Shown piece after piece: positions 2,626 through 13,110 of a DNA stretch of 36,898 bases. Source of the DNA: a virus; the IMG/VR virus record IMGVR_UViG_3300044640_000922, positions 1 to 36,898 of that record; one strand, 5' to 3'. Position numbers and translations under genes: made by a program. Position 1 is the first letter of the stretch, and each line of letters starts with the position of its first letter. The notes beneath the pieces are model-generated. The model did not search any database and was not told the origin of the DNA. It saw nothing but the letters and a program-made list of their open reading frames with translations.

Positions 2626-2792
2626 CGGACGCCCCGCAGGCAGTCGTGAACGAACGCCTGCCGCTCGGCCTCGATGTGGCGCACGGCCCTATGCTTGGCG
2701 CGGGCCTCCGCGATCCGGCGGTCGAACTCGGCCAGCTTGGCGTCAAAGGCCGAGGGCTGGCGGCGCAGGCGAGACAGGAGGGAACGGATCAT
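2622..2792 (-). CDS. Small charged protein, paralogue of 3682..3861
   Basis: 56 residues between the methyltransferase (ATGA overlap at 2789..2792) and rusA (GTGA overlap). The core FDRRIAEARAKHRAVRHIEA and ERQAFVHDCLRGVR closely matches the small protein on the other side of the methyltransferase (FDRRLYEARRAHKPTRHIEA, ERRAFTHAALKAQ). It is helical, Arg/Glu-rich and has no membrane segment. Tight overlaps on both sides and the paralogue argue that it is a real gene. Function is unknown; a partner or regulator of the methyltransferase is possible. Confidence 0.75.
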   Translation of the reverse strand: MIRSLLSRLRRQPSAFDAKLAEFDRRIAEARAKHRAVRHIEAERQAFVHDCLRGVR

Positions 2793-3685
2793 GCTGCACA
2801 CTCGACGCGGCCAAACAGCGCCCCGTCTTCCGCAATCCTGGCGGCCGCCATCTCGGCATAGGCCGGGTTTAGCTCGCAGAGGATGGCGTCTCGACCGTGG
2901 CGGTCGGCCACCAGTCCGGTCGTGCCTGACCCACCGAAGGGGTCCAGCACAACGCCCCCTCGCGGGCTCCCGGCCAGGATGCAGGGCTCTATGAGGTCGG
3001 GCGGGAATGTGGCGAAGTGGGCGCCTTTAAAGGGCTTGGTCGCCACGGTCCAGACGCTGCGGCGGTTGCGGGTGTCCCGGATCGCTCTAAAGGCTTCCCG
3101 CCCCGGCACCGCATTTGTCTTGCCATTGAACTCGCCGCGGACTTTAGACTGGCGAGGGCCCGCGCTAGACCGCCCCATCTGATGGGCACCGGTCTTGCCG
3201 GTATGGAGCTCCGAACCGCGCGCGCCATAAATGGCGTCTTCCTGCATCGCCTCGTTGTCGAAGTAGTAGCGAGGCCCCTTCGACAGCAGGAAGATATACT
3301 CATGCGCCTTGGTGCAGCGGTCCTTTACGGACTCGGGCATCGGGTTCAGCTTGTGCCAGATGACGTCTTGCCGAAGGGTCCAGCCGTCCGCCTGTAGGGC
3401 AAGGGCGACGCGCCAAGGGATGCCCAACAGGTTCTTGGCCGAGCCGTAGCTATCCCCCAGGTTCAGCCAGAGGGTGCCGTCATCCCGCAGGACGCGGCGG
3501 ACCTCGCGGAACACCGCGACCAGTTTGGCGACGAACTCGTCAGGCGTGGCCTCCAGCCCAATCTGTCCGTCATGCCCGTAATCGCGCAGGCCGAAATAAG
3601 GCGGCGAGGTGACGCAGGTGTTGACGCTTTCACTCGGAAGGGAGCGTAGGGTCTGGAGGCAGTCACCGACACGAAGCGAGATCAC
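2789..3685 (-). CDS. Beta-class site-specific DNA methyltransferase (N6-adenine or N4-cytosine)
   Basis: 298 residues. The catalytic motif comes first, TSPPYFGLRDYG (S27-P-P-Y30), and the AdoMet-binding motif DPFGGSGTTG is near the C-terminus (248-257): the motif order of the beta class that includes CcrM and M.BamHI-like enzymes. GDCLQTLRSLP at 7-17 and QDVIWHKLNPMPES at 106-119 are further family motifs. The target-recognition region is about residues 135-210. SPPY is more usual in N4-cytosine enzymes but occurs in adenine ones, so target base and site cannot be read from sequence. No restriction enzyme is adjacent, so it is an orphan enzyme, probably for protection from host restriction or for regulation. 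GTG start at 3685 overlaps the previous stop. Confidence 0.9.
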   Translation of the reverse strand: MISLRVGDCLQTLRSLPSESVNTCVTSPPYFGLRDYGHDGQIGLEATPDEFVAKLVAVFREVRRVLRDDGTLWLNLGDSYGSAKNLLGIPWRVALALQADGWTLRQDVIWHKLNPMPESVKDRCTKAHEYIFLLSKGPRYYFDNEAMQEDAIYGARGSELHTGKTGAHQMGRSSAGPRQSKVRGEFNGKTNAVPGREAFRAIRDTRNRRSVWTVATKPFKGAHFATFPPDLIEPCILAGSPRGGVVLDPFGGSGTTGLVADRHGRDAILCELNPAYAEMAAARIAEDGALFGRVECAA

Positions 3686-9016: not shown

Positions 9017-9414
9017 CCCCGACCAATGACCAGATTTTCAGGGAGGCCGTCCGCAGGCGGGAGGCCGTTCCAATCGAGCAGAGGCTTCCTGTGCAGGACT
9101 ACGTCATTGAGGTCGTGCGCGAAAACTGGACCCCGCCTGAGCCTGTGGACCCGGACATTCTGGCGTTCAGGGAGTGGGGCGCGGCTGACAGCGAGGCGGA
9201 TGGGTGGACGGGCGGAGCAACCCTCCATCGGCAAGGTCATTTTGACCTCTCGGAGGGAGCCCAAGCCTACCTCGCCGGCGCCCGCATGGCCCGAGAGAGG
9301 GAGCAGGAGCGGGCTAAGGTGTTGGTGAATTATATAAGGGATCCAAGAGCAGACATGCGCATCGTCGCCCTCGCCAAATACGAGGTAGATCTGCTGAAGG
9401 AGTCCGATCAATGA
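9013..9414 (+). CDS. Hypothetical phage protein
   Basis: 133 residues, ATGA overlaps on both sides. Contains PEPVDPDILAFREWGAADSE, a 'DPDxLAxREW' pattern that I have seen in small phage proteins of unknown function, and a Gly/Ala region LSEGAQAYLAGARMARERE. Ends with a helix ALAKYEVDLLKESD. No enzymatic motif. Confidence 0.6.
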   Translation: MTPTNDQIFREAVRRREAVPIEQRLPVQDYVIEVVRENWTPPEPVDPDILAFREWGAADSEADGWTGGATLHRQGHFDLSEGAQAYLAGARMAREREQERAKVLVNYIRDPRADMRIVALAKYEVDLLKESDQ

Positions 9415-10089: not shown

Positions 10090-10127
10090 GGGTTGCGGAA
10101 TCTGATCTCCAAATCATTCCGCAGCCC
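10090..10127 (+). other. Long RNA hairpin after the first plus-strand operon
   Basis: gggttgcggaa (10090..10100) pairs with ttccgcagccc (10117..10127), and TGAT/ATCA pair inside it, leaving a 6-nt loop and a 2-nt bulge. One G-U pair, otherwise Watson-Crick. It ends exactly where the terminator hairpin begins, sharing the C-run at 10125..10127, so the two could be mutually influencing. The loop contains ctccaaa, as in a tryptophan anticodon loop, but D- and T-arms are absent, so I do not call a tRNA. Confidence 0.6.
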
Positions 10128-10151
10128 CTCGCCTCGGCGGGGGGTTTTTTT
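10125..10151 (+). terminator. Rho-independent terminator of the first plus-strand operon
   Basis: CCCC-t-CGCC (10125..10133), a TC loop and GGCG-GGGG(G) form a GC-rich hairpin followed directly by seven T residues (10145..10151). It lies 69 bp after the stop of the 73-residue membrane protein gene and just before a new promoter. Confidence 0.85.
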
Positions 10152-10167
10152 ATAGGGAATTATATAT

Positions 10168-10200
10168 TTGACTCCCCGATAATTCCGGGGTAGATATCTA
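10168..10200 (+). promoter_or_regulatory. Promoter with palindromic spacer (operator)
   Basis: TTGACT (10168..10173) and TAGATA (10191..10196) are spaced by exactly 17 bp and match sigma70-type boxes well. The whole spacer is an inverted repeat, CCCCG-ataattc-CGGGG, which would place a dimeric protein between the boxes. The -10 region is itself part of a 10-bp palindrome (tagatatcta). GACTC at 10170..10174, a GANTC methylation site, overlaps the -35. The next gene (10242) has AAGGAG 6-12 bp before its ATG. Confidence 0.78.
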
Positions 10201-10241
10201 CTTATGGAGCGGATAAGACGAACGCTCACAAGGAGATAGCG

Positions 10242-10451
10242 ATGAGCAACCAAGCCACGGGCAATTTCGCCCATCAGCCCCGGGAGGGTTTCATGGCTCC
10301 GACGTTCCGCATCTTCGTTCGCACCGCTGAAGGCGCCGAGTTTCAGGCTTTCACGTGGTGCCGGGACGAGGCATCTGGCATCGCTCGCGCTTGGCGCGAA
10401 GGCCGCGAATTTGGTCACAACGTGACCGCCGTCTGGGCGGAGGCGGTCTAA
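10242..10451 (+). CDS. Small hypothetical protein, first gene of second plus-strand operon
   Basis: 69 residues; ATG at 10242 with AAGGAGATAGCG before it. A second in-frame ATG at 10293 also has GGAGGG upstream, so a shorter 52-residue form starting MAPTFRIFVRTAEG is possible. The C-terminal part (FRIFVRTAEGAEFQAFTW, then ASGIARAWREGREFGHNVTA) looks like a small beta-beta-alpha domain. TAATG overlap with the next gene. Function unknown. Confidence 0.68.
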   Translation: MSNQATGNFAHQPREGFMAPTFRIFVRTAEGAEFQAFTWCRDEASGIARAWREGREFGHNVTAVWAEAV

Positions 10452-10657
10452 TGGCCGTCACGCTTGAAATCGGCCCCAATGGCTCAACCGTCATGGTTGA
10501 GCCTGTGCTTCGCAAGGGCCTAACCCGTCGCGTCTTCCGCTACATGGCGGATGGCTCGCTTGAATGGGCCGCCTACGATGACTGGCGGTCTCAACATGAG
10601 CGCGCCCGGTTCTTCGGCTTCGCCTCTCGCGAACTCCCCGCCTCTATGACCTCCTGA
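10451..10657 (+). CDS. Small hypothetical protein
   Basis: 68 residues, MAVTLEIGPNGSTVMVEPVL onwards. The ATG shares an A with the upstream TAA. The first half is beta-like with VFRYMADGSLEWAAYDDWRS in the middle; ends ERARFFGFASRELPASMTS. No recognised family. Confidence 0.6.
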   Translation: MAVTLEIGPNGSTVMVEPVLRKGLTRRVFRYMADGSLEWAAYDDWRSQHERARFFGFASRELPASMTS

Positions 10658-10669
10658 AAGGAGCCCGAC

Positions 10670-10867
10670 ATGCATAGCGTTCTTCGCCCCAACTACCGCC
10701 GCGCTCGCGCCCTCGCCTTGGAGATCGAGGCCGCTCGCGTCCATCTGGACGAGGCGCGAGGTGACCCTTCATACACCCTCGACGACATCGAGGATTTGAA
10801 GGCCGAACTACATCACTTGGAGCGCGAGTTCTCGCTAACCGGCGTGACTTCGGAGTATGACCTGTGA
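10670..10867 (+). CDS. Small helical hypothetical protein
   Basis: 65 residues with AAAGGAG before the ATG. A helical hairpin: RRARALALEIEAARVHLDEA and LDDIEDLKAELHHLEREFSL. Acidic, coiled-coil-like. Ends in a GTGA overlap with the next gene. No function recognised. Confidence 0.62.
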   Translation: MHSVLRPNYRRARALALEIEAARVHLDEARGDPSYTLDDIEDLKAELHHLEREFSLTGVTSEYDL

Positions 10868-11094
10868 GCGGCCCTCATCCCGATCCGCTGTCCGACATGC
10901 TCAGCAAGCCGCACGAATTGGACGGTCGGTTCGAGCGCGAGGCGAAGACTGTCACCACGTGTATCTCGGATGCCGCGCTTACCTCAATCGCCGTCAGCCT
11001 TAAGCGCATCGCAGATGCCATGGACGGCGGCGATGCCTCTCAAGGCATCCAGAACAGCCTTTTCTTCCTCGAACAGAAGATGCATGGGCAATGA
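10864..11094 (+). CDS. Small hypothetical protein upstream of the transposase
   Basis: 76 residues from GTG at 10864. Contains TSIAVSLKRIADAMDGGDAS (about 41-60), an amphipathic helix found in short phage proteins of unknown role. The TGA overlaps the transposase ATG (ATGA at 11091..11094), meaning the transposase is translated from the same phage message. Confidence 0.6.
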   Translation: MSGPHPDPLSDMLSKPHELDGRFEREAKTVTTCISDAALTSIAVSLKRIADAMDGGDASQGIQNSLFFLEQKMHGQ

Positions 11095-12008
11095 GCAAGT
11101 CCACGATCTCCACGTTCGAGCTTTTCCAGATGTTCCCCGACGCGGAAGCCGCGCGGGTCTACATGGAGGGTAAGCGGTGGCCTGACGGCGCCGTCTGCCC
11201 GGCCTGCGACGAGGCCAAGCGGATCACCACGCGCAAGGGCGGCTTCTACCGCTGCAATGCCTGCAAGACGGACTTCACCGTTCGCACCGCGACCATCTTC
11301 GAGCGCAGCCATATCCCGCTGCACAAGTGGCTCTACGCCATGTATCTGCTCGTCACGTCCCGCAAGGGCATCTCTTCGATGCAACTGGCGAAGCAAATCG
11401 GGGTCACGCAGAAATCCGCGTGGTTCATGCTTCAGCGGCTCCGCGAAGCCTGCGGCAATGACCCCAGCGTCCTGAGCGGCATCGTCGAAATCGACGAGAT
11501 GTATGTCGGTGGCAAGGAAGCCAACAAGCACAAGGGCAAGAAGCTCAACGCCGGTCGCGGCGCGGTCGGCAAGACTGCCGTGCTGGGGATGCGTGAGCGC
11601 GGCGGGAGGACCAAGGCTGGCGTGATCGCCAACACGTCCGCCAACACCCTTCACCGGGCCGTTCACGGCCACGTTGAACCCGGCTCGACGCTCCACACGG
11701 ATGAGCATGGCGGATATCTCGGGCTCGACGGGCTGTTCTACACCCATGAGAGCATCAACCACGGCTCGGGCGAATACGTCCGCGACGGCGTTCACACCAA
11801 CTCCATCGAGAGCGTGTGGGCCGTCATGAAGCGCGGCATCCATGGTGTCTATCACCACGCCAGTCCGAAGCATCTGGACCGCTACGTCAGCGAGTTCACG
11901 TTCCGCCTCAATGACGGCGATGTTGCCCGACACACGCTGGACCGCATCTCGTCCCTCCTGTTCGCCTCCACCGGCAAACGCCTCACCTACAAGGCCCTGA
12001 TCGCATGA
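11091..12008 (+). CDS. IS1595-type (ISXO2-like) transposase embedded in the phage operon
   Basis: 305 residues, full length for the family. Residues 36-58 are a zinc ribbon (C36-x2-C39, C55-x2-C58) read as VCPACDEAKRI and YRCNACKTDF. A helical DNA-binding region follows (RKGISSMQLAKQIGVTQKSA, 91-110). The DDE-like core is intact: EIDEMYVGGKE (D135), LHTDEHGGYL (D204) and HTNSIESVWAVMKRG (N237/E240 and K247), matching the DD(N/E)K signature. HLDRYVSEFTFRLN closes the core. Unlike an inserted IS, it overlaps its neighbours by ATGA at both ends and I see no terminal inverted repeats or target duplication, so it looks like a phage-resident, possibly repurposed transposase. Confidence 0.92.
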   Translation: MSKSTISTFELFQMFPDAEAARVYMEGKRWPDGAVCPACDEAKRITTRKGGFYRCNACKTDFTVRTATIFERSHIPLHKWLYAMYLLVTSRKGISSMQLAKQIGVTQKSAWFMLQRLREACGNDPSVLSGIVEIDEMYVGGKEANKHKGKKLNAGRGAVGKTAVLGMRERGGRTKAGVIANTSANTLHRAVHGHVEPGSTLHTDEHGGYLGLDGLFYTHESINHGSGEYVRDGVHTNSIESVWAVMKRGIHGVYHHASPKHLDRYVSEFTFRLNDGDVARHTLDRISSLLFASTGKRLTYKALIA

Positions 12009-12148
12009 CCGAAATCCTGAAGGCTCTCGACGCAATCACCACCCGCGTTCTCGGCTATCGGCCCAAGGAAAAGGGCGCCGCAGCGACCAAGATGCGGAAG
12101 CAAATCGAAAAGGCGGAAAGGAAGGCGAAACGTGAGGAAGGGGAGTGA
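12005..12148 (+). CDS. Very small basic protein coupled to the transposase
   Basis: 47 residues, MTEILKALDAITTRVLGYRP onwards, ending in a Lys/Arg/Glu helix (KMRKQIEKAERKAKREEGE). ATGA overlap with the transposase stop. A short amphipathic segment followed by a strongly basic tail could bind nucleic acid. Last gene of the operon; its 3' end lies in the terminator stem. No known family. Confidence 0.6.
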   Translation: MTEILKALDAITTRVLGYRPKEKGAAATKMRKQIEKAERKAKREEGE

Positions 12149-12167
12149 ACTATATAATTCCCTTTTT
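12138..12167 (+). terminator. Terminator at the end of the second plus-strand operon
   Basis: AAGGGGA (12138..12144) pairs with TTCCCTT (12158..12164), allowing one G-U pair, and is followed by further Ts to 12167. It sits in the 17-bp gap between convergent genes and would stop plus-strand transcription from running antisense into the late operon. Confidence 0.6.
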
Positions 12168-13110
12168 ATACGGCCTCGCCCCGGAAATAGGCTACGCCGT
12201 CGATGACCTCGCACAGTTCAGGCGGCAGGAGGCGACCGTCCTTGAACGTCAGGACCGCGAACCCTGAACACCAGGGGGTCGCGTTGTTCTCCAGATACTC
12301 GAACTGCGGACCGAGCGGATCGGCCAGAGTGCCGGTGTCGACGCCCCACCGACGCCCGGTGTAATCGGCCCAGGGCGTGATGGCGAGCCGGTGAAGGTGG
12401 CCCGTGACCATCGTCAAGCCGCCTTTCAGGGTGTTGTTGTAAGTGGCGTGGATGCCGTTGGCCTGCCGGTGCTTCACCATCACCGAGCCGTTCAGGCGGA
12501 TAGACCAAGCCATTTCCCATTCGGGGAACTTGTCAGCAAGCCGCTCCAGGACGCCGTCATACTGCCCGGCGTTGATGGCGAGGGCGCGGTCAAACCGCTG
12601 GTCGTGGTTGCCGATATTCCAGTCAAGCGGCGTCCCCCGCCTGGCGGCGAGGGCGATCTCATGCATCCGCTCAAGGCAGGCGTCCAGCTCTTCCTTCACC
12701 GAAGGAGGCTGGCCCCAGCCGTGAGGGTCGTGCCGGCTGATCCGGGCGCCGTCGAAGATGTCGCCGTTGGCGATGATCCGGGCGGGCTTCAAACGCTTGA
12801 TCAGTTTCAGCAGCGCCTCGTTCGCCACCGTCCGCGAGCCCGGCCAGAAGTGGGCGTCGGAGAAGGTGACAACGTGGCCGTTCTCCACCGTCGCCTGACG
12901 CTCGCGGGTGTAGGACCAGGCCTGGGTGTAGATGGTCGCCGACTCGCGAACCGGGTTCGTCTCCAGCAGGAGGCCCCGCTGGCTCATGGCCCGCCGGCGG
13001 TCATAGACGCTACGCTCGGTGACCCCGAGGATGCGGGCGGCCGCGGCAACAGATCCACGCGCGGTTTCCCACGCGGCGATGAACTCTTCGTCAGTCGAGC
13101 GGCGGGGCAT
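12166..13110 (-). CDS. Calcineurin-like metallophosphoesterase with N-terminal HTH
   Basis: 314 residues. Residues 5-48 are a helix-turn-helix (EEFIAAWETARGSVAAAARI, then LGVTERSVYDRRR). The rest is a metallophosphoesterase with all motifs: SDAHF (D85, H87), NGDIFDG (D117), GNHDQ (N168, H169), VKH (H214) and GHLHR (H238, H240). Such enzymes hydrolyse phosphoesters, including nucleic acids or cyclic nucleotides, with two metal ions. The HTH suggests a DNA substrate or site, and phage relatives are often placed near packaging or lysis genes. GGAGGG precedes the ATG. It is the last gene of the late operon. Confidence 0.9.
   Translation of the reverse strand: MPRRSTDEEFIAAWETARGSVAAAARILGVTERSVYDRRRAMSQRGLLLETNPVRESATIYTQAWSYTRERQATVENGHVVTFSDAHFWPGSRTVANEALLKLIKRLKPARIIANGDIFDGARISRHDPHGWGQPPSVKEELDACLERMHEIALAARRGTPLDWNIGNHDQRFDRALAINAGQYDGVLERLADKFPEWEMAWSIRLNGSVMVKHRQANGIHATYNNTLKGGLTMVTGHLHRLAITPWADYTGRRWGVDTGTLADPLGPQFEYLENNATPWCSGFAVLTFKDGRLLPPELCEVIDGVAYFRGEAV

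Follow-up and report, generated by a model that had tools for sequence, protein, structure and literature searches.

In IS10 and IS50 the ribosome-binding site is hidden in read-through RNA, and IS1 carries a promoter in its left inverted repeat that is repressed by InsA. The control of Tn10 and Tn5 by Dam provides a precedent for regulation of a transposon by adenine methylation (PMC5390034, PMC5371812, PMC4265352). PMC8101967, citing Siguier et al. 2009, gives the groups of the IS1595 family as IS1595, ISPna2, ISH4, ISSod11, ISNwi, ISNha5 and IS1016.

The locus considered here lies in a 36,898-nucleotide stretch of viral DNA (IMG/VR record IMGVR_UViG_3300044640_000922), the whole of which is referred to below as the window. 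A preliminary description had proposed a promoter, TTGACT-N17-TAGATA, with a palindromic spacer and a GANTC site overlapping its -35 box, and had linked it to the operon that expresses the transposase. The boxes, the palindromes and the GACTC are all present at the positions described (Table 1), but the region is not a phage regulatory region; what was described as a promoter forms the left end of an IS1595-family element that has inserted into the phage genome.

An IS1595-family element in a phage terminator

The insertion sequence is intact, is 2,008 bp long and spans window positions 10155-12162. Its TIRs start with GG and are matched at 21 of 23 bp, and GGGAATTATATA is found at both element ends. 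A sister phage (L178, ~96% identical) shares the phage genes and the terminator region but has a single TTTTTATA and no insert; its terminator region runs straight into the downstream flank and so represents the empty site. Together, the TIRs, the flanking TTTTTATA copies and the empty site indicate that a 2,008-bp element entered the phage genome between two convergent operons, its target being the T tract of the terminator there. When the first downstream protein was used as a query, two contigs were recovered that are ~99% identical to the window from 10152/10155 on and unrelated before, and this break in identity marks the end of a mobile element. Element boundaries were located automatically in ~75 relatives, and the 8-bp duplications were perfect in nearly all of them. 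DNA searches against annotated phages and plasmids returned no match, and named phages held distant transposases only (at most 41% identity). Nothing was found in Rfam at curated thresholds; two sub-threshold Rfam matches on the phage-terminator side were put down to chance.

The transposase contains a DDE_Tnp_IS1595 domain (PF12762, 162.4 bits against a cutoff of 27; NF033547, 214.3 against 75) and an N-terminal zinc-ribbon (PF12760, 40.6 bits against 25.4). Four passenger ORFs precede it, and the operon with a transposase that had been described is thereby borne out, as part of the element.

Since promoter and operon make up one insertion sequence, they do not belong to a phage regulon. It is very improbable that the palindrome is an operator through which a phage or host regulon governs a phage operon: it does sit upstream of small early genes, but it is part of the insertion sequence, is missing from the empty site of L178, and accompanies the element when this is found in unrelated surroundings (L002, L003). 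Nor does it recur in the phage; the window has a single exact CCCCG-N7-CGGGG, and matches with up to two mismatches number 79 against 104 expected.

Table 1. Features of the element and its flanks (window coordinates).
Feature	Position	Strand	Remarks
Phage intrinsic terminator closing the upstream early operon	10123..10151 (stem 10123-10146)	+	T tract contains the insertion target
Left target duplication copy, TTTTTATA, 8 bp	10147..10154		Single copy in the L178 empty site
Left TIR, GGGAATTATATATTTGACTCCCC	10155..10177	+	21/23 to right TIR; family TIR consensus, ~75 relatives
-35 box TTGACT	10168..10173	+	Inside left TIR; 17-bp spacing to TA-type -10 in 50/69 relatives
GACTC (GANTC) site	10170..10174		Part of TIR motif; overlaps -35; sole GANTC in element
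Spacer palindrome CCCCG-N7-CGGGG, CCCCGATAATTCCGGGG	10174..10190		Confined to one transposase clade
-10 box TAGATA	10191..10196	+	Family forms TAGTTA, TATATA, TATATT, TAGATT
TATCTACTT, complementary to ribosome-binding site	10195..10203	+	Upstream of predicted start at ~10203
Leader stem-loop GAGCG-N11-CGCTC	10207..10227	+	Stem here in nearly all clade members; sequence varies
Ribosome-binding site AAGGAGATA of first passenger ORF	10230..10238	+	Complementary to the 10195-10203 block
Passenger ORF 1, 69 aa	10242..10451	+	Without Pfam or PHROG match
Passenger ORF 2, 68 aa	10451..10657	+	Without family match
Passenger ORF 3, 65 aa	10670..10867	+	Without family match
Passenger ORF 4, 76 aa	10864..11094	+	Without family match
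IS1595-family transposase, 305 aa	11091..12008	+	PF12762 1e-47; PF12760 2.5e-10; NF033547 1.8e-63
Short right-end ORF, 47 aa	12005..12148	+	Without Pfam match
Right TIR, reads TTCACTC	12140..12162	-	Pairs with left TIR
Right target duplication copy, TTTTTATA	12163..12170		Flanks the other side of the element

The predicted TIR-embedded promoter, its spacer and the leader

The predicted promoter matches the consensus weakly (5/6 at the -35, 3/6 at the -10), and a sigma-70 scan listed no promoter at 10168-10196. The call was made mainly on spacing conserved among relatives; of the 69 relatives whose TIR contains TTGAC or TTTAC, 50 have a TA-type -10 exactly 17 bp further on, and the other spacings from 15 to 20 bp are each represented by 0-7 relatives. 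On this basis the promoter proposed earlier stands as a prediction, and we infer that a putative housekeeping-sigma promoter drives the transposase gene together with the four passenger ORFs that come before it. The 10-bp palindrome at the -10 (TAGATATCTA, tagatatcta, 10191-10200) is also present as described but is not conserved in relatives, and probably arose by chance.

With the -35 inside the end that the transposase recognises, bound transposase should exclude RNA polymerase; transposase on the left TIR would thus block RNA polymerase and bring about autorepression. Among 53 elements that do not belong to the palindrome clade, the leader of 27 contains a further, third copy of the element's TIR motif, matching at 10-12 of 12 bases and oriented either directly or inversely; in the left ends inspected, direct copies bring a TTGAC -35 and inverted copies sit in the promoter. 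Variant TIRs are mirrored in these leader copies (TTGACTTGC in L059 and L118, ACTTCC in L102), and in most elements that lack a third copy the promoter is located within the TIR. The simplest reading of these sequences is that the transposase binds and represses its own promoter. In the leaders of L012, L021, L026, L031, L059, L076, L084, L086, L099 and L118, an internal TIR copy overlaps an internal promoter, which points to autoregulation by the transposase throughout this part of the family.

When elements were placed on the transposase tree, a CCC-N11-GGG pattern filling the spacer was present in 21/21 members of one clade and in 0 other elements. The arms vary, from CCCCG/CGGGG in the window to CCCTC/GAGGG (L006, L008), CCCGAAA/TTTCGGG (L013) and CCCGA/TCGGG (L047, L060), and in L034 and L100 the left arm deviates at its outermost base. 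Covariation was assessed in 28 sequences, partly retrieved with a pattern that fixes the outer pairs but not pairs 4/14 and 5/13. The inner pair 5/13 was kept in 26 of the 28, with three pair types, compared with 12.2 in shuffles; pair 4/14 was weakly kept (15/28 vs 10.5). As the transposase tree holds ~2-3 changes at pair 5/13, the covariation rests on few events. The palindrome between the boxes is nonetheless real, given its presence throughout the clade and the covarying inner pair, and the spacer dyad is selected or recently inherited, more than noise.

The palindrome between the boxes may be the dimer site that had been suggested, but it is explained at least equally well as a hairpin in RNA that reads through from outside. 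If the palindrome were a DNA operator, a dimeric protein (the transposase or another repressor) would block RNA polymerase between the boxes. The conservation of the dyad in the clade, with its axis exactly mid-spacer (0.65 paired vs at most 0.45 for shifted axes), and the three pair types at 5/13 are consistent with such a site; one palindrome arm overlaps the TIR, and the spacers of L041, L058 and L102 hold an inverted copy of their own TIR motif. However, the downstream arms track the left end and not the right TIR, unlike a plain transposase half-site, and in the members with TAGTTA the inner mismatches coincide with a longer outer stem and a bulged T, a pattern that is RNA-like and awkward for a dimer site. 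Moreover, a clear DNA-binding passenger gene common to the clade was not found. We consider an operator function conceivable, although somewhat doubtful. The spacer hairpin was also considered as an intrinsic terminator and set aside, as no run of U comes immediately after it.

The RNA hairpin would belong to a mechanism in which transcripts entering from outside turn the left end into RNA; the palindrome would then form a hairpin, and UAUCUACUU would pair with AAGGAGAUA, hiding the ribosome-binding site. Immediately downstream of the -10, the palindrome clade has a conserved block, TATCTNCTT, that is complementary to AAGGAGATA, with the leader stem-loop lying between the two. Because the block is upstream of the predicted start, it would occur only in RNA read in from outside; internally started transcripts, lacking TATCTNCTT, would be translated, as in IS10 and IS50. 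In partition-function folding of the clade, the predicted openness of the ribosome-binding site was 0.25 in read-through RNA and 0.57 in internally started RNA, and shuffling the upstream sequence gave 0.41; for the window element the prediction was 0.16 for read-through vs 0.80 for internal transcripts. Pairing of the TATCTNCTT block with the ribosome-binding site had a mean of 7.7/9, vs 5.8 for other left-end segments. For single elements the significance is weak: in only 5/29 clade elements is the site hidden better than in 95% of shuffles, and L013, L161 and L174 do not fit. The predicted protection from read-through by a hidden ribosome-binding site is moderately supported. Taken jointly, the best explanation of the locus is probably a complete IS1595 element with a TIR-embedded promoter, autorepression and a read-through RNA lock, some of these parts being predictions.

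What lies downstream of the leader is less constant. Nearly all passenger-bearing members of the clade have the start of their first ORF at position 84-94 of the element, but the passengers differ (e.g. L013, L016, L020, L022, L111) and are mostly small uncharacterised proteins; the DNA methyltransferase in the passenger slot of L020 is the only passenger ORF with a family match. Since the start position is nearly fixed and the genes are not, the left end of the clade looks like a fixed promoter-leader cassette ahead of exchangeable cargo. Several of the elements with differing small genes in the fixed slot are on viral contigs. Clade members also occur in host genomes, for example those of Novosphingobium and Pelagerythrobacter (L108 and L111). 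One contig (L168) has two different clade left ends ~430 bp apart, at positions 9408 and 9839, perhaps through nested or composite insertions.

The GACTC site and methylation

GANTC is roughly ten times rarer in the window than expected: it occurs 16 times, where a dinucleotide model predicts 155 sites and a trinucleotide model 111; four of the sites are at 9400, 9417, 10098 and 10170. The body of the window element has 0 GANTC against 10.6 expected, GACTC being kept in the left TIR only, and the right TIR, which reads TTCACTC, has neither a GANTC nor a -35. Pooled across the clade, element bodies hold 22 GANTC against 134.5 expected, and the left GANTC is retained in 18/21 members. Because both the phage and the element body avoid GANTC, the host is likely of the CcrM type and probably methylates the GACTC of the left TIR. 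The site overlapping the -35 is, as was first suggested, a potential CcrM target, and its methylation may modulate the promoter or TIR binding.

The further proposal, that CcrM methylation of the GACTC tunes the promoter and with it the transposase, would by analogy with Dam for IS10 and IS50 couple transposition to replication. It could draw on the depletion of GANTC around a retained left-end site, on the Dam precedent for Tn10 and Tn5 (PMC5390034, PMC4265352) and on the CcrM/GcrA-dependent promoters already known (PMC3667746). However, the family TIR consensus, GGGAATTATATACTTGACTCCC, includes GACTC in relatives both with and without surrounding GANTC avoidance (L068, L041 and L054 are examples of the latter), and the site is therefore no CcrM-specific adaptation. 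The GACTC is present because it is TIR sequence, and TIR function alone suffices to explain its retention. GACTC was found at the left end of 21/26 elements in GANTC-depleted hosts vs 15/34 in others (Fisher p 0.007), but this excess was unsupported once kinship was controlled by independent contrasts, an underpowered comparison with 5 independent pairs in which nothing was significant, and right ends showed no such excess. In addition, L034 and L100 have lost the site, and L025, L036, L051 and L106 carry TTTACT instead. We therefore regard tuning of the promoter by methylation as unlikely. The more elaborate scenario, in which the clade in CcrM-type hosts purged GANTC from its body and kept the promoter-TIR copy, so that full or half CcrM methylation would keep both the expression of the transposase and the recognition of the ends in step with the cell cycle of alphaproteobacteria, is if anything slightly less likely still.

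In a literature search of partial coverage, a CcrM equivalent of the Dam control of transposons was not found; among the papers retrieved, timing by methylation was described for Dam and not for CcrM. The clade provides a clean comparative set for asking whether CcrM methylation times transposition and, if it did, the element would be a CcrM counterpart of Dam-controlled IS10.

Three other genes of the window, all on the minus strand, are worth recording. A GcrA-like match (1779-2279; PF07750, 24.7 bits, just below cutoff) is possibly a phage cofactor that reads methylated GANTC; a phage DNA methyltransferase (2789-3685) matches CcrM models in its N-terminal part (NF050803, 102.5 bits, far under the cutoff of 830; PDB 6pbd, 7.8e-21); and a small protein (1489-1818) has a DnaA C-terminal DNA-binding domain (PF08299, 6.7e-11).

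Comparison with described systems

A puzzling phage promoter is hereby resolved into a well-defined mobile element, in which one DNA stretch may combine a transposase recognition site, a promoter, a palindrome and a read-through RNA lock. What is new here, within the known IS1595 family, is a promoter embedded in the TIR together with a palindromic spacer particular to one clade and, by prediction, a lock against read-through.

The element shares with the IS1595 family the zinc-ribbon and DDE_Tnp_IS1595 domains, GG-starting TIRs and an 8-bp target duplication, and differs in having four passenger ORFs before the transposase and a conserved palindromic spacer in a promoter that is embedded in the TIR. 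Like the CcrM/GcrA promoters of alphaproteobacteria (PMC3667746), it has a GANTC in a housekeeping-type promoter within a GANTC-depleted genome, although here the GANTC is imposed by the TIR and there is no sign of GcrA dependence. As in IS1, the promoter lies partly inside the TIR and is open to repression by an end-binding protein encoded by the element; unlike IS1, the element has a single transposase frame and a palindromic spacer, and a separate repressor was not found. With IS10/Tn10 and IS50/Tn5 it has in common a terminal promoter overlapping an adenine-methylation site and, by prediction, the hiding of the ribosome-binding site. The transposase families are unrelated, however; the methylation site is at the -10 in IS10 and IS50 but at the -35, within the TIR, in the window element, and the pairing of site and enzyme is GATC and Dam there, as against GANTC and, as a candidate, CcrM here.
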